Below, one piece after another: positions 11,562-34,179 of a stretch of 64,000 nucleotides of DNA. Below the pieces are notes generated by a model. It was not told the origin of the DNA. It made no database searches and was given only the letters and a program-made list of their open reading frames with translations. Each line of letters opens with the position of its first letter. Position 1 is the stretch's first letter. Position numbers and translations under genes: made by a program. Source of the stretch: Chelatococcus sp. HY11 (lineage in GTDB: Bacteria > Pseudomonadota > Alphaproteobacteria > Rhizobiales > Beijerinckiaceae); contig NZ_JAHBRX010000002.1 in NCBI RefSeq assembly GCF_018398335.1, positions 558,001-622,000 of the forward strand, given 5' to 3'.

Positions 11562-11577
11562 TGCCTAGTCCGCTAAA

Positions 11578-11674
11578 GCATCGGCCCGAAAAGTGAAACG
11601 CGGTTTTCGGACAAGGCCGATGCGCAAACAAATGGCTATGGCACCGGACCGGATACCGTATCCGGTCTGGTGCC
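11578..11674. repeat. Two-hairpin intergenic repeat, copy A
   Basis: Two inverted repeats in a row. The first has arms gcatcggcc and ggccgatgc (11578-11623); the second is a long stem at 11640-11674 with 17-base arms and one G-T wobble. The same two-part layout and much of the first part recur at 27474-27568. It lies between a binding-protein gene and its permease genes. This looks like a dispersed palindromic element of the kind known in Hyphomicrobiales; the family name is not assigned here. Confidence 0.75.
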
Positions 11675-11683
11675 GTAGCCGCC

Positions 11684-13216: not shown

Positions 13217-13303
13217 GCCTTTGTTCCCTTCATAGGCCACATTACTTGCGCTCCTCTGCTTATACTTAGAATGTGGAGGGGGGCAAGAAGGGAGCAGTCC
13301 GGC

Positions 13304-19221: not shown

Positions 19222-19403
19222 GGCGGAGCGGGACTGTTGTCCGATCGCCTTGCATTTCTCTGTGCCGGGTGTGCCTGCGGCGGAGCCGTGTTCTGGACAT
19301 AAACTTGAGATTGCGGAACGAGCGCGCCGCCATGGGCGCGGTCGGGCGCGCATCCGCAAACCAGCCCATCTCGACACCGTCCGTCTGATCAAACGAGAAC
19401 CTG

Positions 19404-20396
19404 ATGTCAGCACCGCGACGCAATCTGCCGCTTCGTTTCATCGGCAGGAGACTTCTACAGGCCCTGCTGACGATCCTCGGCATTGCGATCATCAATTTCT
19501 TCCTTCTGCAACTGGCGCCCGGCGACGCGGCGGACGCGCTGGCCGGCGAGGCGGGGACCGCCGATGCGGAATACCTGGCCAATCTCAGACGGGAATTCGG
19601 TCTGGACCGGCCCTTATGGGAACAGCTCGCGGCCTTCCTGATGCGGATCGCCACATTCAACCTCGGCTATTCCTTCCGTTACGGCGAGAATGTGTCCACG
19701 CTGATCCTGGGGAGGCTTCCGGCCTCGCTGCTCTTGATGGTGGCGAGCATCCTCATCGCGCTCATGGTCGGCGTTATCTTCGGCGTGACCGCCGCGCGGT
19801 ACTTCAATCGCTTGCCGGACCGGCTGATCTCGCTGCTGGCTCTTCTTTTCTACGCCACGCCGCCTTTCTGGATCGGCCTCATGATGATCGTCGTCTTCTC
19901 GGTGTGGCTCGGCTGGGCACCGACCGGCGGCATGCGCGACATCACCGCGCAGGATCGCGGATTTGCAGGCGTGCTCGACGTGCTCCGGCACCTTGCCCTG
20001 CCCGCTTTGACCCAGGCGTTCTTCTATCTCGCCATCTACACCCGGCTGGTGCGCGCAGGCATGCTGGAAGTTATGAGCCTCGACTACATCCGTGTTGCGC
20101 GCGCCAAGGGTGTCTCGGAACAGCGCATCGTCTATCGCCATGCGCTGCGCAACGCGGTGCTGCCGCTGATCACCGTGGTGGGAACGAATATCGGCGGCTT
20201 CCTCGGCGGCGCCGTGCTGACGGAGACGGTGTTCTCCTGGCCGGGCATCGGCCGGCTGATGTTCGACGCCATGATGCAGCGCGATCTCAATCTGCTGCTG
20301 TCGATTCTCGTTCTCAGCTCGGTTTTCGTCGTTCTCGCCAATCTGGTGGTGGACCTCATCTATCCCTTTATCAATCCGACGGTGGAGCTGCGGTAA
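19404..20396 (+). CDS. ABC transporter permease, DppB/OppB type
   Basis: A 330-residue permease with the family opening FIGRRLLQALLTILGIAII, the LAPGDAADALAGEAGT periplasmic stretch and the EAA loop IRVARAKGVSEQRIVYRHAL. Five to six membrane segments. It belongs to the operon with the preceding binding protein; its stop overlaps the next start (TAATG). This set is distinct in sequence from the first peptide-type importer at 9754-13216, so it is a separate system and not a duplication. Confidence 0.92.
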   Translation: MSAPRRNLPLRFIGRRLLQALLTILGIAIINFFLLQLAPGDAADALAGEAGTADAEYLANLRREFGLDRPLWEQLAAFLMRIATFNLGYSFRYGENVSTLILGRLPASLLLMVASILIALMVGVIFGVTAARYFNRLPDRLISLLALLFYATPPFWIGLMMIVVFSVWLGWAPTGGMRDITAQDRGFAGVLDVLRHLALPALTQAFFYLAIYTRLVRAGMLEVMSLDYIRVARAKGVSEQRIVYRHALRNAVLPLITVVGTNIGGFLGGAVLTETVFSWPGIGRLMFDAMMQRDLNLLLSILVLSSVFVVLANLVVDLIYPFINPTVELR

Positions 20397-21235
20397 TGCG
20401 CTACGTCCGGCTTGCCCTGCGGAACTGGACCATGGCGCTCGGCATCCTGCTGCTGGCTGCCGTCGTGATGATGGCGCTGACGGCGCATCTCATCTTTCCG
20501 GGCGATCCCTACGAGATGGTCGGCGTTCCCCTCACCTGGCCGGGGCAGGAGCCCGAGACGCTGCTCGGCACCGACAGCCTCGGCCGCGATATGGCCGCCG
20601 GCCTGTTCTACGGCGCGCGCGTGTCGCTGCTGGTTGGCTTTTGCTCAGCCTTCGTAGCGGCGACGGTCGGTGTCCTTGTCGGCGCCTTCGCCGGCTACTA
20701 TGGCGGGTGGACTGACGATGTGCTGATGCGCATCACCGAGCTATTCCAGACCACCCCGCAGTTCATGCTGGCGCTCGCTGTCGTCGCCGTTCTCGGGCCA
20801 TCGGTTACGGTCATCATCTTCTCACTGGCCGTGGTATCCTGGCCGACAGTCGCCCGCCTCGTGCGTGGAGAATTCATCGTCATGCGCGATCGTGCCTTCG
20901 TGCACAGCTGCGTCGTGACCGGCATGAGCGACCTGCGCATCATCTTCGCGCAGATCCTGCCCAATGTCGTGCCAGTCATCATCGTCATGTCCACGATCCT
21001 GGTCGCGACCGCGATCCTGATGGAATCGGCGATCTCCTTCCTGGGCTTCGGAGATCCGAATGTGCTGACCTGGGGCACCATGATCGGCATGGGGCGAGGC
21101 CAGCTGCGTGACGCCTGGTACATCATCGCCATTCCCGGAGTGGCGCTGCTGCTCACCGCGCTTGCGCTCAATCTGGTTGGCGAGGGCCTGAATGACGCGC
21201 TCAACCCGCGCCTGAGACAAATGAAGGGACGATAG
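20396..21235 (+). CDS. ABC transporter permease, DppC/OppC type
   Basis: A 279-residue permease coupled to the DppB-type gene by a TAATG overlap. It has TLLGTDSLGRDMAAGLFYGAR, typical of the C-type subunit, and the EAA loop region CVVTGMSDLRIIFAQILPN. The second conserved block is ESAISFLGFGDPNVLTWG. A longer open frame in the same phase runs upstream through the DppB gene but has no family similarity there. No DppD/DppF ATPase gene follows; the convergent AraC gene ends 23 bases downstream. Confidence 0.92.
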   Translation: MRYVRLALRNWTMALGILLLAAVVMMALTAHLIFPGDPYEMVGVPLTWPGQEPETLLGTDSLGRDMAAGLFYGARVSLLVGFCSAFVAATVGVLVGAFAGYYGGWTDDVLMRITELFQTTPQFMLALAVVAVLGPSVTVIIFSLAVVSWPTVARLVRGEFIVMRDRAFVHSCVVTGMSDLRIIFAQILPNVVPVIIVMSTILVATAILMESAISFLGFGDPNVLTWGTMIGMGRGQLRDAWYIIAIPGVALLLTALALNLVGEGLNDALNPRLRQMKGR

Positions 21236-21258: not shown

Positions 21259-22320
21259 TTACGGCATATCCGTCGGCACCAGCCGCTGACGGGCCTGTTT
21301 TGGCGTCAAGCCGAAATGCGCGCGGAAGGCCGAGGTGAAGCTCGCCTGATGGCGGAAGCCGACAGCCTGGGCGACAGTGGCGATCGGCGTGTCGCTTTCC
21401 GCCAGCAACTGCATGGCGCGATGCATGCGGTGGCGGTTGCGATAGGCGAAGATCGTCGTGCCATATAGCAGCCGAAATCCGCTTTTCAGCTTGGTGGCGT
21501 TCGTGCCGAGCTTTCGGGCCAACCTCGGAATGGTCTGCGATTCAGAGAAGTCGCTCGCCAGAACGTCGCGGGCGCGATCGAACATGGCGAGTTCACGGGC
21601 GGTGAAGACGATCGACTGCTCCTCGGCCTTGCCACCGCGGTCGACGGCATCGACGGAGAGCACAAGAAGCTCGATGATACGGGCGGCCGCCAGCGGAAGC
21701 CCCCTCGGGCCGGTAAACTTGATCTCGAACAGATCGCGCAGGAGACGCAGGAACTCCGGATCGATCTTCTGCTCCGACATGGCCATCGTGCCCTCGCGGG
21801 GCGAAAGCAACTGCTGCGCCATGCTGTGCGAGACATCCATGCCGAAGCTCCCCGCGAGGAGATCCGGCCGGACGTAGAAGCTCGCCATCTTGTAGGTTCC
21901 GGGCTGGCAGACGACGTCGTAAGCCATGCCCGCCGCCTGCTGGCAGACGATCAGCGAGACGTTGGTGGGGGCGGTGGCGTCCCTCTCTTGAGGAAGAGAG
22001 AGTTCAACCGGCCCCTCAAGCAGAAAATGGAACTCCAGCAAGCCTTCAGCGGCCACGCGCTCATGGCGAATCGTGAAGTATTCGCAGTCCGTCAGAACCG
22101 CGAATATGCCCTCGGAAGGAGACAGGAAACGCCACGCCCCCCTTCCCTCCTTCGCGGGCAGATCAAAGCACGCGTGGAACAGGCCGAGACGTTCGTCGAC
22201 TTGGAGCTTGACATCGGATTTTGCCAGGTTGCGAAACGTGGCGGAAACCGTTCCCTCCGGCCCTCCGAAATAGGCGCGGAACAGCCCTTTTTTATGCGCC
22301 GCGTCTTCACAATCGTCCAT
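21259..22320 (-). CDS. AraC-family transcriptional regulator
   Basis: A 353-residue regulator whose C-terminal 100 residues hold the two helix-turn-helix motifs of AraC proteins (PRLARKLGTNATKLKSGFR and IATVAQAVGFRHQASFTSAF, ending in GLTPKQARQ). The N-terminal 240 residues are a divergent effector domain. Its helix-turn-helix region resembles the PchR-like group. The ATG at 22320 has GGAGA about 7 bases upstream; the frame extends to 22410. It is the last gene of the aldehyde dehydrogenase-kynureninase-dioxygenase operon, so it probably controls this module and may bind the shared element described upstream of neighbouring operons. Confidence 0.88.
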   Translation of the reverse strand: MDDCEDAAHKKGLFRAYFGGPEGTVSATFRNLAKSDVKLQVDERLGLFHACFDLPAKEGRGAWRFLSPSEGIFAVLTDCEYFTIRHERVAAEGLLEFHFLLEGPVELSLPQERDATAPTNVSLIVCQQAAGMAYDVVCQPGTYKMASFYVRPDLLAGSFGMDVSHSMAQQLLSPREGTMAMSEQKIDPEFLRLLRDLFEIKFTGPRGLPLAAARIIELLVLSVDAVDRGGKAEEQSIVFTARELAMFDRARDVLASDFSESQTIPRLARKLGTNATKLKSGFRLLYGTTIFAYRNRHRMHRAMQLLAESDTPIATVAQAVGFRHQASFTSAFRAHFGLTPKQARQRLVPTDMP

Positions 22321-22413: not shown

Positions 22414-23247
22414 CTAAAGGTCGGATCGGACGTGCCAGAGTTCGGGAAAAAGCTCGACCTCAAGCATCCGGCGCAGATAGGAAACGCCGCCGGTGCCGCC
22501 GGTGCCGCGCTTGAAGCCGATGATGCGCTCCACTGTGGTGACGTGGTTGAAGCGCCAGCGCCGGAAATAGTCCTCGAAGTCGACGAGCTTCTCCGCCAGC
22601 TCGTACAACGGCCAATAGTGCTGGGGATCGGCATAGATCTGCCGCCACGCCTCACGCACCTTGGGGTTGATAACGCGGGTCTGGCGGATGTCGGCGCGGG
22701 GTTCGTCACCGACATCGAAGCCATTGCGCTGGAGAAGCGCGATCGCCTCGTCGTAGATCGAGGGCTCGGACAGGATGCTATCCAGCTGGCCGAGGGTTTC
22801 CGGCCGGTGCTCATGCGGCCGCAGCATGGCCAGGTTACGGTTGCCCGCCAGATATTCGATGGCCCGGTACTGCCAGGACTGGAAGCCTGAGGATTGGCCG
22901 AGCGATGGCCGCATGATGTTGTATTCGGACGGCGTCATGGTCCTGAGCACATCCCAGGCCGAATTGAGCTGGTCGAAGATGCGGGCGACCCGCGTCAGCA
23001 TCTTGAACGCGGGCTGCAGCTGGTCGACTCGCAGCGCCCGCGAGGCCGAGCGCATCTCATGGATGGCGAGCTTCATCCATAGTTCCGAAGTCTGGTGCTG
23101 GATGATGAACAGAAGCTCGTCATGCGCGCCCGAGAGCGGCTTCTGTGCATTCAGCACCTCATCGAGATGCAGATAGTCGCCATAGGACATCTTGCGGTCG
23201 AAGGACATTTCCGCGCCTTCGACGGATGGATCGTAAGGCTCGGTCAT
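22414..23247 (-). CDS. kynA: Tryptophan 2,3-dioxygenase
   Basis: A 277-residue haem enzyme that opens the indole ring of L-tryptophan to N-formylkynurenine. Visible signatures: [14 protein letters not shown] near the start, H51 in [13 protein letters not shown] (active-site base), and near the end H235 in [19 protein letters not shown] (haem ligand), followed by the GTGG loop. Length is normal for the family. Its start overlaps the kynureninase stop by 4 bases (ATGA). With kynureninase and the formamidase-like hydrolase at 33313-34179 it gives the three steps from tryptophan to anthranilate and alanine. Confidence 0.96.
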
Positions 23248-24437
23248 GTCACGGCTGCCTTGTGATGATAATCAGGCGTGTCCCAGAGCCGCTTATCCAG
23301 AACCTCGGCCAGCACGGCCACAGCCTTGTCGATATCGGCCTCGCCGAGATAGAGCGGCGTGAAGCCGAAACGTATGGAATCAGGAGCGCGGAAATCCCCG
23401 ATGACCCCCTTGGCGATCAAAGCCTGCATGACCGCATAGGCGTGGGGGTGGCGGAAGGACACTTGGCTTCCGCGCGCCGCCGGGTCGCGCGGACTGCCGA
23501 GTTCAAGGCCCGGGCAGGCGGCTTCCACTCCGGCGATAAAGCGCTCGCTCAACAGGATCGACTGGGCGCGCACATCACTCAGCGCGACGTTTTCCCAGAT
23601 GTCGAGGGCAACGTCGAGCACGGTCAGTGCGATGACCGGCGGGGTGCCGACACGCATCCGCTCGATTCCGGGTGCCGGGCGATAGTCGAGGTCGAAGGCG
23701 AAAGGCGCGTCATGGCCCATCCAGCCGGACAGGCTGGGGCGGGCGCGGTCGGCATGGCGCGGCGCGACATAGATGAAGGCCGGCGCGCCGGGTCCGCCGT
23801 TCAGATATTTATAGGTGCAGCCGACGGCGAAATCCGCGTCCGCGTCCGTCACATTCACAGCGAGGGCACCGGCGGAATGCGCCAGATCCCAGACCGTCAC
23901 GGCGCCGGCGGCATGGGCCTTGGCGGTGAGGCGCTTCATGTCATGGAGGCGCCCCGTGCGATAGTCGACCTCGGTGAGGAGCGTGACGGCGACACGCTCG
24001 TCGATGGCGCCCTCCACCTCCTCGGGCTTGACGACCTTCAGCTCGTAACCACGCCCCAGCGAGGCGAGGAGCCCTTGGGCGATATAGAGATCCGATGGGA
24101 AATTGCCGCTGTCTGACAGCACGATGCGCCGTTCGGGCACGAATTCGAGCGCCGCCGACAATGCCTGATAGACTTTGATGGACAAGGTATCGCCCATCAC
24201 CACCGTACCGGGCGCGGCGCCAATCAGCCGTGCCACCCGGTCGCCGACCTTGCGCGGCTGCACATACCATCCGGCGGTATTCCAGCCGCGGATCAGTTGA
24301 TCGCCCCATTCCCGTGTCAACATCCGCGCGAGGCGCTCGCCGGCGGCAACCGGCAGCGGCCCGAGCGAATTGCCGTCCAGATAGACGACGCCGTCAGGGA
24401 TATGGAAGGCTGCGCGGGTCTTGGTGAAATCGGTCAT
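23244..24437 (-). CDS. kynU: Kynureninase
   Basis: A 397-residue pyridoxal-phosphate enzyme that cleaves kynurenine to anthranilate and alanine (or the 3-hydroxy form). The opening [13 protein letters not shown] is diagnostic. The cofactor aspartate is in [11 protein letters not shown] (D184), and the Schiff-base lysine is K210 in [11 protein letters not shown]. It is translationally coupled to the dioxygenase gene downstream and starts 15 bases after the aldehyde dehydrogenase stop, so all three plus the AraC gene form one leftward operon. Confidence 0.96.
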
Positions 24438-24452
24438 GCGCCTCGGTCCTGA

Positions 24453-25844
24453 TCAAGCGGCCACTGAACGGATGACGATCGCCTTCTTGCGGAGAAATCG
24501 GCGAAAGCCACCGTAACCATAGCGCGTGCCTCCGAGGCCCGAGCAGCCGAACGCGGTTTTCTCGGCGCGGGCACCGACACCGCCCATCGTGTCGAAATCA
24601 TTGATCCACAACCCGCCCGCATTGATGCGGCTGCCGATCGCGATCGCCTTGGCCTCCTCGCCTATGACGGCCGCGGAGAGCCCGAATTCCGTGTCATTGG
24701 CCAATCTGACAGCGTCCTCGTCCGTATCGAAGGCCATGATCGGAACAATGGGACCAAAGGTCTCGTCGCGCATGACCGCCATGTCCTGCGTGACGTCGAC
24801 CAGAACGGTCGGCTCGCACCAGAGCCCGCCGTCATGCGAGATGATTCTGCCGCCGGCCAGCACCTTGGCGCCCTTGGCGAGCGCATCGGCGAGCTGGTCG
24901 CGCAGTATGTCCGCCTGACGGGCGAAGATCACCGGCCCGATTTCCCCCTGCTTGATGTCGGCGGTGTTCATGATGAGCGCCTTCATGCGCGCGACGACCC
25001 GCTCGCATACGGCCTCGTAGACGCCACGCTGCACATAGACGCGCTCGATGGCGCAGCAGAGCTGGCCCGCGTTCTCCACTGACCCGCGCACGATGATCTC
25101 CGCCGCGAAATCGGGCTCGGCACCGTCCAGCACGACAGCCGGATCGCTGCCGCCGAGTTCGAGGAACACGGTCTTGAACTGGGCGGCGGCGCGCTCCTGC
25201 ACCTTACGGCCGGTACGCACCGAGCCCGTGAAGACCAGCGTGTCGGTGAGATCCACGATCATCGCGCCCGTCTCGCCATCACCCTCGAAGACATCGAGCA
25301 CGTCCCGCAGATGCTCGACTTCCGCAATGGCCGCGCGGAAGGGCTTGATGAAGCGTGGCGTGACCTCCGACGGCTTGATGGCGACGGCCGAGCCGGCGAG
25401 CAGTGCCGTGATGGCGTCGATCATGCAGAGGATAAGGGGGTAGTTCCACGGCGAGATTATGCCCACCAGTTCGTAGGGAACGTGCTGTTGCTGGAAGCGC
25501 AGCGTCGGATCGGAGGAAGAGCCGGTCGCCTCCGCGAGCGCCTCGGCCGCCGTGGCGCAGCGCATACGCGTAATGCCCTTGAGGCCCTCGATTTCATTGA
25601 CCGACCACTCGTAACGACCGGTGTCGGCGCAGAGCGCCTTAAGGATCGCGTCATAGTGGCGATCCACCGCATCGCACAGGGCCAGCATCGCCTTCGCCCG
25701 GCCATCGATGCCCAACGCCAGCCATGCAGGCTGGCCAGCGCGCAGTTCCGCGCAGCGCGCCTCCAGCGCCTCACGGCTCAGGGGCGTTATCGCATAGTCA
25801 TTGGCGCCGGTACGCGGATTGCGGATATCGAGCGTGCGGGTCAT
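24453..25844 (-). CDS. Aldehyde dehydrogenase, in the kynurenine operon
   Basis: A 463-residue NAD(P)-dependent aldehyde dehydrogenase. The catalytic glutamate is E229 in FLELGGSDPA and the nucleophile C263 in AGQLCCAIERV; SPWNYP and FTGSVRTG are the cofactor motifs. The ATG at 25844 gives a normal length; the frame is open 113 codons further but that part resembles nothing. It is the first gene of the leftward operon with kynureninase and tryptophan dioxygenase and is divergent from the UbiD-family gene. By analogy with the 3-hydroxyanthranilate route it could oxidise a semialdehyde, but the ring-opening dioxygenase and ACMS decarboxylase of that route are absent here. Confidence 0.92.
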   Translation of the reverse strand: MTRTLDIRNPRTGANDYAITPLSREALEARCAELRAGQPAWLALGIDGRAKAMLALCDAVDRHYDAILKALCADTGRYEWSVNEIEGLKGITRMRCATAAEALAEATGSSSDPTLRFQQQHVPYELVGIISPWNYPLILCMIDAITALLAGSAVAIKPSEVTPRFIKPFRAAIAEVEHLRDVLDVFEGDGETGAMIVDLTDTLVFTGSVRTGRKVQERAAAQFKTVFLELGGSDPAVVLDGAEPDFAAEIIVRGSVENAGQLCCAIERVYVQRGVYEAVCERVVARMKALIMNTADIKQGEIGPVIFARQADILRDQLADALAKGAKVLAGGRIISHDGGLWCEPTVLVDVTQDMAVMRDETFGPIVPIMAFDTDEDAVRLANDTEFGLSAAVIGEEAKAIAIGSRINAGGLWINDFDTMGGVGARAEKTAFGCSGLGGTRYGYGGFRRFLRKKAIVIRSVAA

Positions 25845-25922
25845 CGTGCATCCTCTTGTCTCGACCAGAAGATGGCCGAGCGTCCCGCTCCTGCAAAGGG
25901 GCGCGTGTCGCGTCCTGCCGAA

Positions 25923-25952
25923 TTCCAAAAAGTTAGGGCTGGCGAAGAAAAA
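25923..25952. promoter_or_regulatory. Shared upstream element, copy 2
   Basis: Starts ttccaaaaag and ends gaagaaaaa, closely matching 17488-17516. It lies between the divergent aldehyde dehydrogenase operon and the UbiD gene, 62 bases before the UbiD start and 79 bases from the dehydrogenase start. Both copies thus sit in divergent promoter regions and in the same orientation relative to the rightward gene. Confidence 0.45.
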
Positions 25953-26013
25953 GCGAAAGCTGTTATCGGCTGCCGCAAGCGGATTAACTGGCGGAACCGA
26001 GAAGGAGACGACC

Positions 26014-27345
26014 ATGCGGCGATTCATCGAAGATCTGGCCCAACGCGGCGAACTTGGCGTCGTGCGCCGTCCGGTCAATCCGCGCCACCAGCTCGCGGCC
26101 GTCACCAAGGCCGTCCAGAAGGCGGGCGAGCAGGCGGTGCTGTTCGAAAAGGTCGAGGGCACGGCCCTTCCGGTCGTATCCAACCTCTACGGCAGCCACG
26201 ACCGGCTTTGCCGGCTGATCGGCGCCGGCGACGGCAAGACCTTCTGCCAACGATGGATCGAGCTCACGGACGCCTGTATCGCGGCGCAAGACGATGACGT
26301 GCTGGAACAGGCGCCCGCCTCGGTCCAGTCCGAATTCGTCGCGGGCCAGCTCTCGGACCTGCCGGCTGTCACCTATCACGCCCGAGATGCGGGCCCCTAT
26401 TTCACATCGGCCATCTTCCTGGCACGCGAGCCCGACAGCGGCGTGCCGAACCTGTCCTTCCACCGCGCCATGCAGGTCTCGGATGAGGAATTGCGGGTCC
26501 GCCTCGGCTCGACGCACGACCTCGCCCGCTACCAGGCCAAGGCGGAACAGCGCGGGCAGCCGCTGGAGGCCGCGCTGCTCCTGTCCTGCCCGCCGGACAT
26601 CTTCCTTGCCGCCTGCGCCTCCCTGCCCTACGAGGCGTCAGAACTGGCGATGGCCGCCAAGATCAGCGGCGGCAAGCTCGCGATGCGGCGCTGTGAGACG
26701 ATCGACCTCGACGTCCCCGCCTCGGTGGATATCGTGGTCGAGGGCCGCTTTCTGCCCAACGTCAAGCGGCCGGAAGGACCATTCGGCGAATTCATGGGCA
26801 ATTACGTCGGCGTCGGCGACAACCATGTCTTCGAGGTCAGCCATGTGAGCTACAGGCCCGGCGCCGTCTTCCACGGCCTGGTATGCGGCTCACCGGAGGA
26901 CCTGCGGCCGCTGGAGGCCGTCACCGCGGCCCGCATCTATCGCCACGTGGCCTCTCAGATGCCTGGCGTCATCGATGTCTGCTGCCGCCCCAACGTGATG
27001 ATTTCCATCATCAAAATCCGAAAAACCTACGAGGGCCAGGGCAAGCATGCCATCCTCGCGGCGCTCGGTTCCCATCTCGACTACAACAAGGTCGTCATCG
27101 TGGTGGACGAGGACGTGGACATCTACGATCTCGACGACGTGATGTGGGCCTATATGACGCGCGGCCGCGCCGATACCCGCGCGATGATCCTGAACGACAT
27201 TCCCGGTTTCTATCGTGACCCCCACAAGGATCATTGGGGTCGGCTCTGCATCGACGCGACCATGCCCTTCGGCCGCGAGGCGGAATTCGCGCGCAAGACC
27301 ATCCCCGGCGAGGACGCGGTCGATCTCAGCCAATGGCTGGAGTGA
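26014..27345 (+). CDS. UbiD-family (prenylated-FMN) decarboxylase
   Basis: A 443-residue member of the UbiD family, which decarboxylates aromatic or alpha,beta-unsaturated acids, or runs in reverse, with prenylated FMN. The catalytic glutamates fit E254 and E259 in RPEGPFGEFMGNY, and R151 in LSFHRAMQVSDEEL fits the conserved arginine. The ATG at 26014 has AAGGAGA 5 bases upstream; the frame extends upstream without similarity. No UbiX-type flavin prenyltransferase is encoded in the window, so the cofactor must come from elsewhere. Its position with tryptophan-degrading genes suggests an aromatic acid of that pathway; which one is unknown. Housekeeping UbiD is less likely given the catabolic context. 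Confidence 0.88.
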   Translation: MRRFIEDLAQRGELGVVRRPVNPRHQLAAVTKAVQKAGEQAVLFEKVEGTALPVVSNLYGSHDRLCRLIGAGDGKTFCQRWIELTDACIAAQDDDVLEQAPASVQSEFVAGQLSDLPAVTYHARDAGPYFTSAIFLAREPDSGVPNLSFHRAMQVSDEELRVRLGSTHDLARYQAKAEQRGQPLEAALLLSCPPDIFLAACASLPYEASELAMAAKISGGKLAMRRCETIDLDVPASVDIVVEGRFLPNVKRPEGPFGEFMGNYVGVGDNHVFEVSHVSYRPGAVFHGLVCGSPEDLRPLEAVTAARIYRHVASQMPGVIDVCCRPNVMISIIKIRKTYEGQGKHAILAALGSHLDYNKVVIVVDEDVDIYDLDDVMWAYMTRGRADTRAMILNDIPGFYRDPHKDHWGRLCIDATMPFGREAEFARKTIPGEDAVDLSQWLE

Positions 27346-27473
27346 TGCGACCCGTTTCAGGCGCGGCTTCGCCACATGGCGCATCCGTTGTGCCGGTCGC
27401 TTAAAAGCTTCGCCCGATTGCGCAAGCGCCCGGCATTCCGCGCCCGCCGGCCTTCGTTAAGGTCTCCTCCAGA

Positions 27474-27568
27474 GCATCGGCCCGAAAAGTGGAACGCCTT
27501 TTTTGGGCAAAGCCGATGCACGAACAAAGAGCTGCGGCACCGGGCCGGAAACGGCCCGATGCCGCAGC
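27474..27568. repeat. Two-hairpin intergenic repeat, copy B
   Basis: First inverted repeat at 27474-27519 (gcatcggc...gccgatgc), second at 27531-27568 with 16-base arms and one G-T wobble at the matching place to copy A. The opening gcatcggcccgaaaagtg is identical to copy A at 11578. It lies between the UbiD and Rid-family genes, ending about 20 bases before the latter's start codon. Confidence 0.75.
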
Positions 27569-27587
27569 AACATGAGGAGCTTCACCT

Positions 27588-27965
27588 ATGAAGAACCGGA
27601 TCTTCTCCGGAGCACCGTCCGAGGACTTCGCCGGCTATGCCAAGGCGGTGATCGACGGCCCGACGATTTATGTCTCGGGCACGATGGGGCAGGATGCCAC
27701 GGGAGCCTTGCCCGAAGGCGTGACGGAACAGGCACGCAATGCGCTCGCCTCCATCGACGCGGCACTGGTCAAGGCAGGCGCCAGCCTGAAGAACGCGGTC
27801 GCCTGCCGCGTCTACATCACAGATCCCGGTTATCTCAAGGAGGTGGCGCTCGTCCTGGGCGAGGTCTTCCGGGATATCCGCCCGACCAACACGCTCCTTG
27901 TCTGCCAGCTTCCCGCACCCGGTGCCAAAATAGAGATCGAGGTGACGGCCTCGACGCGCGTGTAG
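27588..27965 (+). CDS. Rid-family (RidA/YjgF-like) protein
   Basis: A 125-residue protein of the YjgF/YER057c/UK114 family, which forms trimers and, in the active subgroups, hydrolyses enamines and imines; 2-aminomuconate deaminase also belongs here. Family features: VISGTMG-like YVSGTMGQD, NALASIDAALVKAGASL, VACRVYITDP and the closing IEIEVTA. The arginine that catalyses imine hydrolysis in RidA, expected in the block before LPAP, appears to be replaced by threonine (T100), placing it in a non-canonical subgroup. GAGGAG precedes the ATG. It follows the UbiD gene on the same strand, separated by the repeat element. Confidence 0.88.
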   Translation: MKNRIFSGAPSEDFAGYAKAVIDGPTIYVSGTMGQDATGALPEGVTEQARNALASIDAALVKAGASLKNAVACRVYITDPGYLKEVALVLGEVFRDIRPTNTLLVCQLPAPGAKIEIEVTASTRV

Positions 27966-27987
27966 CGGTCTGTGGACATGCAGCATT

Positions 27988-28035
27988 CCCCCAGATGTCG
28001 TTACCGGAGAGAAACCGCGGATGACATCTGAGGGG
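27988..28035. terminator. Hairpin between convergent genes
   Basis: Arms cccccagatgtc (27988-27999) and gacatctgagggg (28023-28035) pair over 12 bases with a one-base bulge. It lies between the stops of the Rid gene (+) and the permease gene (-), with no long T tract, so a bidirectional terminator or transcript-end hairpin is likely but not certain. Confidence 0.55.
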
Positions 28036-28043
28036 CTTCCCGG

Positions 28044-29348
28044 TCACTTTCCCGGTATGAGGCCCTGAGGCCTGAACCGCAGCACAACAATCAGAATCAC
28101 CCCCATCACCAGGAGCCGCATATGTGCGGCGCTTTCCATCAGATGCTGTTTGAGAGCCGATCCGTCGGCCATGCCGGCTGTGGCGAAGGCCATCAGGCTA
28201 TTGCCCCAAGGCTCGACCTGAACCCAAAGATACCAGATCAGAAAGCCCCCCAGCACCGCGCCAAGATTGCTGCCGGAACCACCGACCACGACCATCACCC
28301 AGATCAGGAAGGTGAAGCGCAGGGGCTGGAACGCGCCCGGGGTGAGCTGCCCTTCCATGGTGGCGAGCATCGCGCCCGCAATGCCCAGCACGGCGCAACC
28401 AAGAACAAAGATCTGCAGGTGCCTGCGCGTCACGTCCTTGCCCATCGCGGCGGCGGCCACCTCGTTGTCGCGGATGGCGCGCATCATGCGCCCCCAGGGG
28501 GAATGCAGCGCTGCCTCCGACAACAAGACGAGCACCAGCAGCACCGCGAGGAACATGCCGGCATAGATGAGCTTGATGGCCACGGCCGAGGCGGCGACGG
28601 AATCGGCACCGATCCATGAGGCCAGCGAGAGGAAGCTCTGGCTAGCCTGAAGGTCCACCTCGAAAGGAACGGGACGGGGAATATCGACAACGTTTTTGAC
28701 GCCGCGATCCAGCCAGTCTTCGTTCTTCATCACCGCGATGACGATTTCGGCAATACCGAGCGTCGCGATGGCGAGATAATCCGAGCGCAACCCGAGCGCG
28801 GTCTTGCCGATGAGCCAGCCGGCACCCGCCGCGAGCAGGCCGCCGACCGGCCATGACAGGAGCACGGGTAGCCCGAGACCGCCGATATTGCCCTGCAGCG
28901 CGGGATTGATCGCCTCGACGGCGGCGACGGCGGGATCGAGGATCCAGCGATAGACAACGAGGCCGGAGATCAGCAGCACGGCGAGGGCGAGGATCCGCGC
29001 CCGGCCTCGCGGCAGCCGCCGGTGAAGCAGCGCCGCGGCGGCGATGACTGCCGCGCCGAACAGCAAGGCCGCCAGGATACGGAAACCTCCGGCCTGCCAG
29101 GCGCCGGGCACGGGATCGAGCGCGACGAGAACTGTCGCCAGACCGCCGAGGGCGACAAAGCCCATCGTGCCGACGTTGTAGAGGCCGGCATAGCCCCACT
29201 GGATATTGACCCCGAGCGCCATGATCGCGGAGATCAGGCCCATGTTGACGATCGTCAGCGCCGCATTCCAGCTCTGCGTCAGGCCGGTGAGCGCGATCAA
29301 CGCGCCGACGACGAGGAAAAGCAGGAGGTTGCGCGTGGTCTGGCTCAT
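28044..29348 (-). CDS. livM: Branched-chain amino-acid-type ABC permease LivM
   Basis: A 434-residue inner-membrane permease of the LivM group, with about ten hydrophobic segments. Diagnostic blocks: NIQWGYAGLYNVGTMGFVALGG near residue 50, LRSDYLAIATLGIAEIV in the middle, and a GRMMRAIRDNEVAAAAMGKD loop that contacts the ATPases. It is longer than usual because of a roughly 100-residue hydrophobic insertion before the LRSDY block. It overlaps the LivH gene by 4 bases and ends the leftward operon. The substrate could be branched-chain or aromatic amino acids, amides or aromatic acids, all known for this family. Confidence 0.94.
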   Translation of the reverse strand: MSQTTRNLLLFLVVGALIALTGLTQSWNAALTIVNMGLISAIMALGVNIQWGYAGLYNVGTMGFVALGGLATVLVALDPVPGAWQAGGFRILAALLFGAAVIAAAALLHRRLPRGRARILALAVLLISGLVVYRWILDPAVAAVEAINPALQGNIGGLGLPVLLSWPVGGLLAAGAGWLIGKTALGLRSDYLAIATLGIAEIVIAVMKNEDWLDRGVKNVVDIPRPVPFEVDLQASQSFLSLASWIGADSVAASAVAIKLIYAGMFLAVLLVLVLLSEAALHSPWGRMMRAIRDNEVAAAAMGKDVTRRHLQIFVLGCAVLGIAGAMLATMEGQLTPGAFQPLRFTFLIWVMVVVGGSGSNLGAVLGGFLIWYLWVQVEPWGNSLMAFATAGMADGSALKQHLMESAAHMRLLVMGVILIVVLRFRPQGLIPGK

Positions 29349-30355
29349 GCTGCCCTGCCGCGAAAGATGCCGGTTGGCCTGAACAGAAGGACGAGAACAA
29401 GAACAATGAAGCTGACAGCGACCTTGTAGTCGGTGCTCAGGAGCTGCAGCAGCCCCTCCGGTTGCCAGCCGGATGGAAGCAGGTAGGTTGCGACCTTCTT
29501 GAAACTGTAGGTGAACAAGATTTCGGAGAAGGCAACGACGAAGCCACCGGCAACGGCCCCCAGCGGATTGCCGAGCCCGCCGACAACGGCAGCGGCGAAA
29601 ACAGGCAGCAGAAGCTGGAAATAGATGATCGGCCGGAATGACTTGTCGAGGCCATAAAGGACGCCCGCAAGCGTGGCGAGCGCCGCCGATAGTATCCAGA
29701 CGATCCTGACGACGCGCTCGGGATCGATGCCCGAAAGCAGAGCGAGGTTCTCATTATCGGAAAAAGCCCGCATGGACTTCCCCGTGCGGGTGCGTTTCAG
29801 GAACCAATGCAGCCAGCCGACGGCGAGGACCGTGGTCGCAAGAGTGATGACTTGCGTCGTACGCAGCGCCATCGTCTCCGCCAGCCCCGTCCACTGGCGG
29901 AACTGCGCGGCGGTGAAGACGAAGCGCGCCCCGTCCGCGAACTGGCGATCGTCGACCCCGATGAAGATGCGGACCAGCCCACCCATGACGAACATGACGC
30001 CCAGCGAGGTCATCACGAGCGTGATCGAGTGGACCCTCTTCATGCGATAGGGTCGATAAACCAGCCGATCAGTCGCCAGAACCACGAGGATGGTGGCGAG
30101 GACGCCGACTGGCAGGGCGAGCAGCGCGACCGGCAGCGGCGCGATGCCCACCCCGGCGGCCTGCAGCGCCCATGTCGCCAGGATGGTCGCCATCGTGCCG
30201 AAGGCCATGGTGTCGCCGTGCGCGAAATTCGAGAAGCGCAGGATGCCATACACCAGGGTCACCCCCAGCGCGCCGAGCGCCAGTTGGCAGCCATAGGTCA
30301 TGGCCGGCAGCAGGACGAAATTCGTGAAGGCGACGAGCGCGTTGAGCACATCCAT
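29345..30355 (-). CDS. livH: Branched-chain amino-acid-type ABC permease LivH
   Basis: A 336-residue permease with the LivH pattern ALGVTLVYGILRFSNFAHGD, RTRTGKSMRAFSDNENLALLSGID and GGLGNPLGAVAGGFVVAFSE. About eight membrane segments. It pairs with LivM to form the translocation path. It is coupled to LivM by an ATGA overlap and follows LivF by 4 bases. The LivH-type N-terminus is about 25 residues longer than common. Confidence 0.94.
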   Translation of the reverse strand: MDVLNALVAFTNFVLLPAMTYGCQLALGALGVTLVYGILRFSNFAHGDTMAFGTMATILATWALQAAGVGIAPLPVALLALPVGVLATILVVLATDRLVYRPYRMKRVHSITLVMTSLGVMFVMGGLVRIFIGVDDRQFADGARFVFTAAQFRQWTGLAETMALRTTQVITLATTVLAVGWLHWFLKRTRTGKSMRAFSDNENLALLSGIDPERVVRIVWILSAALATLAGVLYGLDKSFRPIIYFQLLLPVFAAAVVGGLGNPLGAVAGGFVVAFSEILFTYSFKKVATYLLPSGWQPEGLLQLLSTDYKVAVSFIVLVLVLLFRPTGIFRGRAA

Positions 30356-30359
30356 GCCG

Positions 30360-31091
30360 TCAGCCCCCCAAAAAGGTGCTGCGCACCTCCGGGTCGGCGA
30401 GCAATTCCTTGCCTGTTCCGGTGAAGCGGTTCGCGCCCAGCACCAGCACGTAGCCTCGGTCGGCGATCTCGAGGGCCTGCCGGGCGTTCTGCTCCACCAT
30501 CAGGACCGTGACACCGATGCGTGCGATATCGATGATGCGGTCGAACAATTCATCCATGACAATGGGGCTGACGCCAGCCGTTGGCTCGTCGAGGAGGAGC
30601 ACGGACGGTTCGGTCATCAGGGCACGGCCGACGGCGACCTGCTGGCGTTGGCCTCCCGAAAGCTCCCCGGCGGCCTGGAAGCGCTTGTCCTTGAGCACGG
30701 GAAATAGCGCATAGACCTGTTCCATCGTCCCGCTGAAATCGTCGTGCCGCAGGAAGGCGCCCATCTCGAGGTTTTCCTCCACCGTCATGGACGGAAAAAC
30801 GTTCTCGGTCTGCGGCACGAAAGCCATACCCTGGGCGACGCGCTCCTGTGGTCGAAGCCGCGTTATGTCCTCGCCGCCCAGCCGCACGCTCCCCTCGCGC
30901 AGTTGCAGCATGCCGAAGATGGCCTTCATGGCCGTCGACTTGCCTGCGCCGTTGGGGCCTACGATGACGGCTATTTCGCCCTTCTCGACAGCGATGGTGC
31001 AGCCGTTGAGGATGTCGGCGCCGCCGTAGCCGCCCGTCATGCCAGCGCCAACCAAAAAGGGGGACGTGCTTGCGATGACGCCTGCCGTCAC
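30360..31091 (-). CDS. livF: Branched-chain amino-acid-type ABC ATPase LivF
   Basis: A 243-residue ATPase with Walker A GPNGAGKST at 45-53, the signature LSGGQRQQVAVGRAL, Walker B VLLLDEPTAG and the family-typical GVSPIVMDELFDRI. FVPQTENVFPSMTVEENL is the Q-loop region characteristic of LivF. The start overlaps the LivG stop by 4 bases. It energises transport with LivG on the cytoplasmic side. Confidence 0.95.
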   Translation of the reverse strand: MTAGVIASTSPFLVGAGMTGGYGGADILNGCTIAVEKGEIAVIVGPNGAGKSTAMKAIFGMLQLREGSVRLGGEDITRLRPQERVAQGMAFVPQTENVFPSMTVEENLEMGAFLRHDDFSGTMEQVYALFPVLKDKRFQAAGELSGGQRQQVAVGRALMTEPSVLLLDEPTAGVSPIVMDELFDRIIDIARIGVTVLMVEQNARQALEIADRGYVLVLGANRFTGTGKELLADPEVRSTFLGG

Positions 31092-31903
31092 GACGCGGCC
31101 CCGCCGATCATCGCCTCGGCGATATCCGCGGCCACGACCTTGTTCTTCAAGCCGGTACCGAGATAGGCCTCTATCACCCGCTCGTTGCGCACGATTTCAG
31201 CCGGCCGGCCCTCCGCCAGAATTCTGCCCTGAGCCATGACGATGACACTGTCGCAAAGCCGCGCGATGAAATCCATGTCGTGCTCGATGACACAGAAGGT
31301 GTAGCCACGCTCCCTGTTCAGCCGCACGATCGCCTCGCCGATCGTCCTGAGCAGGGTGCGGTTCACACCCGCGCCGACCTCGTCTAGAAAGACGATACGT
31401 GCGTCGACCATCATCGTGCGGCCGATTTCGAGCAGTTTCTTCTGGCCGCCGGACAGGTTCCCGGCCAGTACGTCACGCATCGAGCCGAGTTCGAGGAACG
31501 CGAGCACATCGAGCGCCCTGGCGCGCAGCTCGGCCTCCTCACGGGCGATCCTGCGCCGATGGACCCAGGTGTTCCAAAGCGTCTCGCCGCTCTGGCCACC
31601 CGGCACCATCATCAAGTTTTCCAGCACGCTCATGGTAGGGAATTCATGCGCGACCTGAAATGTGCGCAGCACACCCCGGGCAAAAAGTGCGTGCGGCGGC
31701 AGCCCGGTGATGTCCTCGCCGGCCATCGTGATGCGGCCTGCCGTGGGCTTATGAACTCCGGCTATGACATTGAAAAGGGTCGACTTGCCGGCACCATTCG
31801 GCCCTATCAGGCCCGTGATGGCGCCGTCTGGAATCGTCAGCGAAACACCGTCTACAGCACGGAACCCGCCGAATTGCTTGTGAATGTCATGGCAAACGAT
31901 CAT
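31088..31903 (-). CDS. livG: Branched-chain amino-acid-type ABC ATPase LivG
   Basis: A 271-residue ATPase. Walker A is GPNGAGKST at 34-42, then FNVIAGVHKPTAGRI, the signature NLSGGQKKLLEIGR, Walker B IVFLDEVGAGVN and the switch histidine in FCVIEHDMDFI. The chosen ATG at 31903 follows a G-rich stretch and gives the standard LivG opening (IHKQFGGFRAVDGVSL); a GTG at 31969 would add 22 residues. The glutamate after Walker B is followed by VGAGVN where PxAG is usual, a small oddity. Second gene of the importer operon. Confidence 0.94.
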   Translation of the reverse strand: MIVCHDIHKQFGGFRAVDGVSLTIPDGAITGLIGPNGAGKSTLFNVIAGVHKPTAGRITMAGEDITGLPPHALFARGVLRTFQVAHEFPTMSVLENLMMVPGGQSGETLWNTWVHRRRIAREEAELRARALDVLAFLELGSMRDVLAGNLSGGQKKLLEIGRTMMVDARIVFLDEVGAGVNRTLLRTIGEAIVRLNRERGYTFCVIEHDMDFIARLCDSVIVMAQGRILAEGRPAEIVRNERVIEAYLGTGLKNKVVAADIAEAMIGGAAS

Positions 31904-31983
31904 CCGCCCCCCGCCGGCTCCGAAACCGCTGGACGTCCCGCCCTCCGGCAGATCGGCTGAGCGACCCACCGCTCTTCCGGCAA

Positions 31984-33180
31984 TCAGTGGTACTTCACTG
32001 TCTTCATCTCGCCGTTCTCCACCACGATCTCGCGGTAGGAGCCAGCGCTTTCCCCCTTGCCGATGAACTCGACCGCCGATGCGCCGACATAATCGATGTC
32101 GCCGCCCTCCTTGAGAATCTTCAAGGCCTTCGCGAGCTCCCCGGGATAGATCTTTTCGCCCGGAGCATTCACCACACTCATGATCTTGGTCTTGTAGTCC
32201 GCCGGCTTCGCGGATCCGGCGGCCTGCATGGCGAGCAGCATGATCGCGGTGGCATCGTAGGTTTCCGGCACGAAGGTGGCCGTGCCATTGATGCCGGCGG
32301 CCTTGGTCATCTCCAGTAGCTTCGCCGCGCCCGGACTGTCGGAGCCGGGACGATCACCAAAGGCGCCATCGAGCTGCTTACCAAACTTCTTGATCAGGCT
32401 TTCGCCCCACATGCCGTTTGGAAATACGAATTTGGAGAAAGCGCCAGTGTCGAGAACCGTCTGTACGACGCCAGCGCCCCCCTGGTCGGCATAGCCCGCC
32501 ACGATGATTGCGTCGCCGCCGGCGGAAGCGAGCGCGCCGATCTCCGCCGAATAGTCGCTTTTGCCGTCTTCGTGCGGGGCACTGAGCGTGATCTTGCCGC
32601 CGAGTTTCTCAAAGGCGGACTGGATGGAGGAAGCGATGCCCTTCCCATAGTCGTTGTTGGTGTAGCTGATCGCCGCGGATTTGATGCCACGATCCCACAT
32701 GATCTTCGAGAGAATCTCGCCCTCACGGGCATCGGACGGCGCGGTACGGAAGAACAGGCCCTTGCCGTCGATTGTAGAAAGGCCGGGCGAGGTCGCCGAC
32801 GGCGAGATCAGGACCATGCCGTTGGGAATGGCGACATTGGTCAGGACCGCGCTGGCGGCGCCCGAGCAGGTTGGCCCGATGATACCTGACACCTTGTCGG
32901 ACGTGATGAGCCGCTCGGCGGCGGCGGTAGCGGCGCCCGCGTCGATGCAGGTCTCGTCGCCTCGGACCGGGATGACCTTGGCTCCATCCAGGAAAATGCC
33001 GGAATCGCTGACTTCCTTCATGGCGAGTTCAGCGGCTTGCGCCATCGGCGGCGTCAGGGTCTCAATAGGCCCGGTAAAGCCCATTTCAATGCCGATCTTG
33101 ATGTCCTCAGCCTTGGCCATGCCCGTTAGAGCCAGGCACGACATGGACGCGAGCAGAAGCGCCTTGATTGCGTGTCCCAT
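31984..33180 (-). CDS. ABC transporter substrate-binding protein, LivK/leucine-binding type
   Basis: A 398-residue periplasmic binding protein with a Sec signal peptide (MGHAIKALLLASMSCLALTG, cleavage after AKA) and the Peripla_BP_6 fold: IKIGIEMGFTGP, VSGIIGPTCSGAASAVL, NDYGKGIASSIQSAFEKLGG. The ATG at 33180 has AGAGGGG upstream at 4-6 bases. It opens the transporter part of the operon; the formamidase-like gene lies 132 bases upstream on the same strand. Proteins of this kind bind amino acids or aromatic acids; tryptophan, kynurenine or a downstream acid would fit the context. Confidence 0.93.
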   Translation of the reverse strand: MGHAIKALLLASMSCLALTGMAKAEDIKIGIEMGFTGPIETLTPPMAQAAELAMKEVSDSGIFLDGAKVIPVRGDETCIDAGAATAAAERLITSDKVSGIIGPTCSGAASAVLTNVAIPNGMVLISPSATSPGLSTIDGKGLFFRTAPSDAREGEILSKIMWDRGIKSAAISYTNNDYGKGIASSIQSAFEKLGGKITLSAPHEDGKSDYSAEIGALASAGGDAIIVAGYADQGGAGVVQTVLDTGAFSKFVFPNGMWGESLIKKFGKQLDGAFGDRPGSDSPGAAKLLEMTKAAGINGTATFVPETYDATAIMLLAMQAAGSAKPADYKTKIMSVVNAPGEKIYPGELAKALKILKEGGDIDYVGASAVEFIGKGESAGSYREIVVENGEMKTVKYH

Positions 33181-33312
33181 AAGTCCCCTCTCTACCGTCA
33201 TCTGGGACGCGGCGGTTTTCCCATCTTGCGCCCGATTCCGAGAATTTACGTCGTCTATGTGACCTTATCGCGAGCAGTTTCACAATGCGGCTGTCGCAAG
33301 TGGCCTCATTTT

Positions 33313-34179
33313 TCAGATTTCAGCTTTTTCGCGTGCTTCTGGCTGACTGCCACAACCAAGCAGCGCCCGCGTCAGCGGATGTCCCGCAATCGTGAGCCCA
33401 TCGACAATGTTGAAATGGTGACGGTCAGGCTCGACGATCGCGGTCGTCGCGGCCCCAAGCCCGCTCCAGATATTCGCCAGCAGCGCATTCTGGCGCAAGA
33501 ACTCCTGGCGCTCGGCCCCACCAGCCCAGCAGACGATCCTGACATCAGCCATCGGTCGCAGTAGCGCCGGGCTCTCAGCTAGAGCCTCAGACTCGTCGAT
33601 CCGCAACACCGCGTTCATGCTGGTCTTCATCAGGGGGCGTAAATCGTGAAGGCCGGAGATCGAGACGACATTGCGGATGCGTTCTCGCGCAACATCGGGA
33701 AGGGGGGTGGTCGCGGCAACCATGCGGCTCACCAAATGTCCGCCGGCGGAATGTCCGCTCAGCGCAATTGGCCCCTCGATCAAGGTCGCGGCTTTCCCAA
33801 TGGCAAGCGCGACCTCGTGGACGATATCGGAAATTCTGATGTCGGGGCATAGGGTATAAGTCGGCATCGCGACCGCATAACCGCTATCCACCGACCCGGC
33901 CGCGAGATGCGACCACGCGCGCTGATCCGACTCCATCCAGTAGCCGCCGTGGACGAAAACCATAAGCCCCTTCGGCTTGGCCTCAGGGAGGAACAGATCA
34001 AGCCGCTGGCGGGGCGCGCGGCCATAGGCGACATCCAATCGGGCTCGACCGGCGGCGGAAAGACCATCACGATACCGCTGCGCCGCCTCGATCCAGAGCG
34101 CGGGCCACCGGTGACCGCCAGCAATGTTGTCACTGTTCGAATAGGCGCTGTCCCAGTCCTCGACATAATATTCGAGCAT
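33313..34179 (-). CDS. Alpha/beta hydrolase, kynurenine-formamidase-like
   Basis: A 288-residue alpha/beta hydrolase with the oxyanion motif H77-G-G-Y-W81 and the nucleophile S144 in SGHSAGGHLVSRM, the combination typical of animal and yeast arylformamidases and the related bacterial esterase group. EPDRHHFNIVDGL near residue 255 carries the catalytic histidine. This is unrelated to the metal-dependent KynB fold. The kynurenine genes 9 kb away on the same strand make N-formylkynurenine hydrolysis the best guess; another amide or ester is possible. It precedes the Liv-type importer and may be cotranscribed with it. Confidence 0.8.
   Translation of the reverse strand: MLEYYVEDWDSAYSNSDNIAGGHRWPALWIEAAQRYRDGLSAAGRARLDVAYGRAPRQRLDLFLPEAKPKGLMVFVHGGYWMESDQRAWSHLAAGSVDSGYAVAMPTYTLCPDIRISDIVHEVALAIGKAATLIEGPIALSGHSAGGHLVSRMVAATTPLPDVARERIRNVVSISGLHDLRPLMKTSMNAVLRIDESEALAESPALLRPMADVRIVCWAGGAERQEFLRQNALLANIWSGLGAATTAIVEPDRHHFNIVDGLTIAGHPLTRALLGCGSQPEAREKAEI

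Follow-up and report, generated by a model that had tools for sequence, protein, structure and literature searches.

We analysed a 64,000-nucleotide stretch of the Chelatococcus sp. HY11 genome (contig NZ_JAHBRX010000002.1, positions 558,001 to 622,000 of the forward strand; hereafter the window, with positions counted from its first letter), in which a gene for a UbiD-family decarboxylase lies beside genes for tryptophan breakdown. The first-pass annotation had listed tryptophan 2,3-dioxygenase (TDO), kynureninase (KYNU), an aldehyde dehydrogenase (ALDH), UbiD, a Rid-family protein, a Liv-type importer and a hydrolase between positions 22414 and 34179. Family models and gene calls bore out this inventory, and the gene cluster was found to run on upstream of 22414 into an FAD oxidoreductase (FADox), a thiamine pyrophosphate (TPP)-dependent enzyme, an Opp-type importer set and an AraC-family regulator. 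The features are as follows.

14415-15734, minus strand: FADox with an amine-oxidase/PPOX fold (HpnE and PPOX NCBIfam models below their cut-offs; AlphaFold model and Foldseek)
15731-17359, minus strand: TPP-dependent enzyme of the PRK08199 subfamily (590.6 bits, cut-off 539)
17614-21235, plus strand: Opp-type importer, binding protein at 17614-19221 and permeases at 19404-20396 and 20396-21235 (gene calls and spacing)
21259-22320, minus strand: AraC-family regulator (PF12833)
22414-23247, minus strand: TDO (TIGR03036, 411.3 bits, cut-off 390.7)
23244-24437, minus strand: KYNU (TIGR01814, 272.3 bits, cut-off 246.4)
24453-25844, minus strand: ALDH, first gene of the ALDH-KYNU-TDO operon (PF00171; solved relative 4h7n)
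26014-27345, plus strand: UbiD-family decarboxylase (TIGR00148, 302.3 bits, cut-off 244.85; PF20695, PF01977 and PF20696)
27531-27568, no strand: 17-bp inverted repeat in the UbiD-Rid gap (sequence scan)
27588-27965, plus strand: Rid-family protein (PF01042; Rid model TIGR00004 below its cut-off)
28044-29348 and 29345-30355, minus strand: permeases of the Liv-type importer (gene calls and profile matches)
30360-31091 and 31088-31969, minus strand: ATPases of the Liv-type importer (LivF and LivG models match, below their cut-offs)
31984-33201, minus strand: binding protein of the Liv-type importer (profile matches)
33313-34179, minus strand: alpha/beta hydrolase, candidate arylformamidase (NCBIfam HaHSL_fam, 353.6 bits, cut-off 320)

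ALDH, KYNU and TDO form a tight minus-strand operon, with a gap of 15 bp between KYNU and ALDH and an overlap of 4 bp between TDO and KYNU, and the ALDH and UbiD genes diverge across 169 bp. This spacing agrees with the earlier statement that ALDH leads the kyn operon and that UbiD and Rid are divergent from it. The FADox and TPP enzyme genes also overlap by 4 bp. UbiD and Rid are 242 bp apart and the 17-bp inverted repeat lies inside this interval; a paired motif resembling it (3 mismatches each) occurs at 11635-11679 of the window. A promoter scan of 25500-28200 found none. The alpha/beta hydrolase matches HaHSL_fam and not a formamidase model, and its gene position alone makes it a candidate arylformamidase; a relative of this hydrolase stands with an ABC importer of the PF04392 type in one of the related loci described below (L013). 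The AlphaFold model of FADox has a mean predicted local distance difference test score (pLDDT) of 91.7, and its best Foldseek rows were CGOX, NicA2, PPOX, monoamine oxidase (MAO) and L-amino acid oxidase.

After establishing the gene content, we asked how often UbiD keeps such company. A genome scan gave 26 UbiD loci (loci are denoted here by L and a number), and neighbours were scored in a matrix of 30 loci with UbiD at least 59% identical, consisting of the window, all 26 scan loci, L049, L056 and L057. We scored about 10 kb on either side of UbiD by tblastn, choosing the cut-offs for identity and length ourselves; ALDH and FADox in the matrix mean relatives of the window's or of L025's proteins. 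UbiX was present at 21 of the 30 loci, ALDH of the window kind at 17, FADox at 15, a TIGR02444 protein at 14, AraC at 13, and the TPP enzyme and an Opp permease at 11 each. RidA was found at 10 loci, TDO and KYNU at 9 each and a racemase at 8, the window included. Less frequent neighbours were LivM (5/30), an aminobenzoate-CoA-ligase-like gene (4/30), the abm oxygenase (3/30), and RidB, a KynB-type gene and HyuA (2/30 each). The window's own FADox lies outside the 10-kb slice and is scored as absent, as are broken ALDH and FADox pieces in L023 that fall below the length cut. Absences in L009, L012, L026, L027 and L028 mean little because contig ends cut these loci; several of L093-L104, which were counted apart, also end at contig ends. 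L061 and L080 stand outside the matrix. Genes in the relatives were called with a simple codon model that failed to find the UbiD of L007 and recovered just one gene of L030, and neighbour names such as Lrp were assigned by eye where no scan was made.

Simple arithmetic puts the chance of meeting one given gene in 20 kb of a 5-Mb genome at about 0.4%, and the linkage of TDO and KYNU to UbiD is more than chance. The arrangement differs between lineages. Shinella (L007) has the order ALDH-KYNU-TDO-UbiX, with TDO and UbiX overlapping by 4 bp; in Paracoccus KYNU-TDO face AraC; and the order in Chelativorans is TPP-FADox-KYNU-TDO. Novosphingobium (L024) has a different kyn set beside UbiD (KYNU 51% and TDO 43% identical), which includes an arylformamidase and an alanine dehydrogenase, both over cut-offs, together with an ALDH, a Rid of a second type and an Lrp-like regulator. 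On a tree of UbiD the kyn label needs 3 changes and the pairing falls on separate branches (16 ungrouped rows uncounted); 9 of the 10 paralogues group together, the exception being L050, which comes off at the base of the main clade. A UbiD 92% identical to that of the window is present in Chelatococcus asaccharovorans DSM 6462. This UbiD is nevertheless uncommon, matches of at least 59% identity occurring in 2 of 397 genomes of the order (this one included) and any match at E 1e-100 in 8, while at E 1e-150 matches were found in 13 of 385 genomes of the class (again including this one). A plasmid search with ALDH gave no match at E 1e-110.

The window UbiD contains the three domains of the family and scores over the TIGR00148 cut-off. 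Its R-E-E triad corresponds to R151, E254 and E259, which are invariant in 20 aligned sequences and also kept in a larger alignment, among the rows aligned over that region. The genome holds two UbiX genes, from which the prenylated FMN (prFMN) cofactor might be supplied. The closest solved UbiD over the full length was HmfF (6h6v; 223.6 bits), with which the window protein has the family arginine and both glutamates in common. HmfF, which we take to be a furan-2,5-dicarboxylate decarboxylase, presumably binds its substrate through His296 and Arg304, whereas the window protein has Asp296 and Thr304. The structure 6H6V is named PtHmfF in PMC8988006. AnInD (7p9q), an indole-3-carboxylate decarboxylase, belongs to the same family and acts on a heteroaromatic acid; its R155 aligns with R151 of the window protein, and it scored 146.6 bits. 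A structure model of UbiD (pLDDT 83.2) had no part in our choice of substrate class.

On the kynurenine side, the window shares TDO and KYNU, both over their cut-offs, and an importer with the TDO-formamidase-kynureninase (anthranilate) pathway; ALDH, UbiD and Rid are no part of that pathway. The 3-hydroxyanthranilate (nba-type) pathway does contain an ALDH and a Rid-like deaminase, but its ring-cleaving dioxygenase was not found in the Chelatococcus genome (6.95 Mb, 99.4% complete) and the window ALDH is of another subfamily. A profile search for 3-hydroxyanthranilate 3,4-dioxygenase (3-HAO) gave no match in this genome, nor in any of the 14 genomes used as controls. Because these initial controls gave no match, the model was run over 190 genomes of the class, of which 21 had a match, 18 of them over the cut-off; the Chelatococcus genome had none. 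LigB and the Rieske alpha subunit likewise had no match in this genome, the model for each matching in 4 of 14 control genomes. The closest solved relative of ALDH was 4h7n (414.8 bits), which is named only aldehyde dehydrogenase, and 2-aminomuconic semialdehyde dehydrogenase (7bzv) was far behind at 169 bits. A check for 2-amino-3-carboxymuconate semialdehyde (ACMS) decarboxylase went to the level of the family, with 11 Amidohydro_2 matches in the genome. We rejected the 3-hydroxyanthranilate route on the missing matches to 3-HAO, LigB and the Rieske alpha subunit together with an ALDH of another kind.

Anthranilate likely leaves through abm-like genes on contig C1 of the same genome, as 2-aminobenzoyl-CoA. 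An oxygenase on C1 is 50% identical to the abm oxygenase that adjoins UbiD in L017, and its neighbours are a short-chain dehydrogenase/reductase gene, a MarR-like gene, an enoyl-CoA hydratase (PRK08258, over cut-off) and an acyl-CoA-dehydrogenase-like gene; elsewhere on C1 a CoA ligase is 56% identical to that of Shinella. The NCBIfam label for the relative in L017, and so for this oxygenase family, is salicylyl-CoA 5-hydroxylase. We nevertheless take the abm-type oxygenase to be a 2-aminobenzoyl-CoA enzyme, from general knowledge and because TDO and/or KYNU genes sit in the abm-type oxygenase clusters of L076, L077 and L078. Genes of the abm type adjoin UbiD in L017, L018 and L020, stand directly behind the module in Shinella (L007/L074), and in Paracoccus (L075) share a contig with L014, some 5 kb beyond its end. 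Among ten module genomes hand-picked from the 26 scan loci, 8 contain the abm oxygenase at 50% identity or more; those of L024 and L025 do not. The first-pass annotation had proposed that a conventional route elsewhere in the genome, combined with no effect of losing the UbiD gene, would speak against a new branch, and the probable exit on C1 answers to the first half of this only.

These observations suggest two coupled pieces, a conventional upper tryptophan pathway and a prFMN-dependent UbiD accessory module tied to tryptophan/indole or anthranilate chemistry, a reading for which we regard the chances as evenly balanced. In the first piece, the importer, TDO, the candidate formamidase and KYNU would lead to anthranilate and alanine, and anthranilate would most likely depart as 2-aminobenzoyl-CoA via genes elsewhere in the genome. 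In the second, an aromatic amino acid, or a derivative of one, would enter through the importers, and the amine-oxidase-type FADox with Rid (imine/enamine hydrolysis), and/or the TPP enzyme, would yield an aldehyde. ALDH would oxidise this aldehyde to an aromatic, heteroaromatic or alpha,beta-unsaturated acid, from which UbiD, using prFMN made by UbiX, would remove the carboxylate. As the candidate class of substrate we favour an indolic or otherwise tryptophan-derived aldehyde or acid. Taken this way, the locus points to a side arm of tryptophan/indole breakdown that has not been described before, rather than to a changed textbook route. A narrower form of the proposal can be put forward tentatively, at somewhat less than even strength: aerobic tryptophan or indole catabolism may have a prFMN (UbiD/UbiX) arm that oxidises an aldehyde derived from a tryptophan metabolite and then decarboxylates the product non-oxidatively, its genes sharing the KYNU-TDO operon in some species and being joined to the abm pathway. 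A literature search, narrow because its terms were combined, found no link of UbiD with kynureninase or tryptophan catabolism.

Several results weigh against this proposal. There is no UbiX gene in the window; the nearest copies lie upstream of UbiD, at distances of about 55 and 68 kb. A residue of the characterised indole enzyme is also replaced: AnInD Asp169 matters for substrate binding (indole NH) and its variants are severely impaired (PMC8988006), whereas the window UbiD has Gly165 at this position. As regards recurrence, 21 of the 30 loci are without TDO, and in 12 further UbiD loci (55-69% identical; class search, direct tblastn) TDO, KYNU, the abm oxygenase, the TPP enzyme and Rid were found in none. 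UbiX, ALDH, FADox, AraC and TIGR02444 each occur once among these 12, all in L093, and HyuA, which the module leaves unexplained, occurs in 5 of them as well as in L030 and L049. Of the module genes, L010 and L028 have those of an Opp-type importer alone, L011 has an importer, UbiX and TIGR02444, nothing was recognised in L026 (4 kb), and in L024 the TPP enzyme and FADox are not near UbiD. At ten paralogue loci (UbiD 47-54% identical), whose ALDH and FAD enzymes are of different types, TDO, KYNU, window-kind ALDH, window-kind FADox and AraC were each found in 0/10, and UbiX and TIGR02444 each in 9/10; the contrast for TDO (9/30 vs 0/10, Fisher p 0.08) is not significant alone with so small a sample, and this control carried little weight in our confidence. 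With TDO missing from 21 matrix loci and from all 12 of the later ones, the kyn linkage holds for only some of the UbiD clade. The first-pass suggestion of an undescribed branch of tryptophan catabolism is thus strengthened by the recurring linkage and narrowed by its confinement to part of the clade.

The most serious rival, improbable in our estimate but a real contender, is that UbiD belongs to an unrelated aromatic-acid module, linked to the kyn genes only by its position or by common regulation. Paralogous UbiD modules with a TPP enzyme, racemase, UbiX and TIGR02444 do exist without kyn genes, and this explanation fits the loci that lack TDO and the weak paralogue contrast. It fits less well with coupling inside one operon, with the different arrangements in separate lineages, or with the association with abm genes as well.

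A branch from indole-3-carbaldehyde also seems unlikely. Here ALDH would form indole-3-carboxylate and UbiD, as AnInD does, would release indole, which would then be oxidised towards anthranilate. AnInD ranks sixth among the solved sequences by the whole UbiD and third by the N-terminal part, but HmfF is closer overall by the scores given above. Gly165 in place of AnInD Asp169 argues against this branch, though an Asp at UbiD position 169, four residues on, is kept in 42/42 clade rows (8/8 paralogue rows have His). Gly165, Asp296 and Thr304 led us to reject the window UbiD as a plain orthologue of either AnInD or HmfF. The relatives L094 and L095 give hints of indole chemistry, which count for the main proposal as well as for this branch. 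The UbiD gene of L094 is part of a row of minus-strand genes that also encodes an ABC importer resembling the L050 one (PF04392) and a Rieske alpha subunit. The best solved matches of this subunit were 9o71 (352.2 bits) and IadD (7yls/8h2t; 350.3), with biphenyl dioxygenase next at 171.1; the subunit of L095 is 71% identical to it. The L050-like importer is found in L094, L095 and L098, and at least its permease in L102, at a contig end. The entries 7yls and 8h2t are those of the indole-3-acetic acid dioxygenase IadD (PMC10374108), of the iad auxin-degradation pathway; the main text of the iad papers (PMC9613470, PMC10374108) does not contain the words UbiD or decarboxylase. Further, in Chelativorans, POR-type, TPP and cyclase-family genes adjoin abm genes and a KYNU. 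Against this, no indole oxygenase was recognised in the window's cluster and, unlike L094 and L095, the Chelatococcus genome has no Rieske alpha match.

A dehydroamino-acid/aryl-pyruvate route, in which FADox would dehydrogenate tryptophan or kynurenine, UbiD would decarboxylate the enamine or enol acid, Rid would hydrolyse the product and ALDH would oxidise the resulting aldehyde, is distinctly less probable. The modelled FADox fold, resembling L-amino acid oxidase, MAO and NicA2, would suit it; moreover, FADox, UbiD, ALDH and UbiX occur together in L025, L013 and L093 (with Rid in L025 and L013), and L025 has an aromatic-amino-acid transaminase. The same fold is a hint at the substrate for the main proposal too, as is a cluster in a gammaproteobacterial metagenome-assembled genome (L030, 3469-20814), which holds FADox, an interrupted UbiD frame, BoxB, BoxC, two Na+-dependent transporters (which would also fit), HyuB-like and HyuA genes, an acyl-CoA ligase, an enoyl-CoA-hydratase-like gene and a lyase that falls between tyrosine phenol-lyase and tryptophanase. 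However, the parts of PMC8988006, PMC10374108 and PMC9613470 on which we draw describe no such UbiD chemistry, FADox is not near UbiD in L024, and the TPP enzyme would duplicate the decarboxylation.

We give little credence to an isatinate-type funnel, in which the TPP enzyme would convert 2-aminophenylglyoxylate to 2-aminobenzaldehyde, ALDH would oxidise this to anthranilate, and UbiD would act on an upstream acid. Such a funnel would converge on anthranilate with TDO/KYNU and the abm genes, and isatin and isatinic acid are intermediates on the way to anthranilate in the iad pathway (PMC9613470). Yet the TPP enzyme is present at 11/30 loci vs 17/30 for ALDH, and no isatin hydrolase was recognised in the cluster, the genome not having been searched for one. 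The first-pass proposal that UbiD replaces ACMS decarboxylase after cleavage of 3-hydroxyanthranilate, prompted by the ALDH and Rid protein, is close to refuted by the missing 3-HAO, LigB and Rieske alpha matches and by an ALDH nearest to 4h7n. A 2-aminophenol route was considered and has the absence of a LigB match against it; kynurenate decarboxylation and arylglycine oxidation were also considered.

Some further observations concern the surroundings of UbiD genes and the importers. A paralogous module, found in L037 (G000 C2:505000-524900), L053, L059 and L060, combines a TPP enzyme, ALDH, a GntR regulator (annotated hutC on plasmids), UbiD and UbiX with an Asp/Glu racemase, FAD/2Fe-2S oxidoreductases and TIGR02444; the presence of a formimidoylglutamate deiminase near this module in L053 hints at imidazole substrates. 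A third UbiD, from 16692 of L037 onward into L038, has 450 residues, is 36% identical to the window UbiD and is accompanied by importer genes, with a UbiX about 5 kb downstream. The HyuA genes near UbiD relatives (L097, L099, L101, L103, L104, L049 and L030) are caprolactamase/hydantoinase-like. TIGR02444/DUF2390 proteins accompany UbiD/UbiX in L006, L012, L013, L037, L049, L053-L055, L058-L060 and others, and may possibly act as a UbiD accessory factor. In the window, the Opp set at 17614-21235 has no ATPase gene before AraC, whereas two ATPase-like genes occupy this place in L005, the nearest related locus; a second Opp-type set at 9754-13240 (binding protein and two permeases) is likewise without a recognised adjoining ATPase gene.

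UbiD enzymes act on many aromatic acids, and few have been characterised in detail (PMC8988006). The recurrence of TIGR02444 with UbiD/UbiX, at 14/30 matrix loci, 9/10 paralogue loci and 1/12 of the later loci, offers a lead of its own on accessory factors for UbiD. If the UbiD described here does act on a tryptophan-derived acid, its decarboxylase specificity would be new and could be tested with a limited number of candidate acids, and tryptophan/indole breakdown would gain a prFMN-dependent branch.

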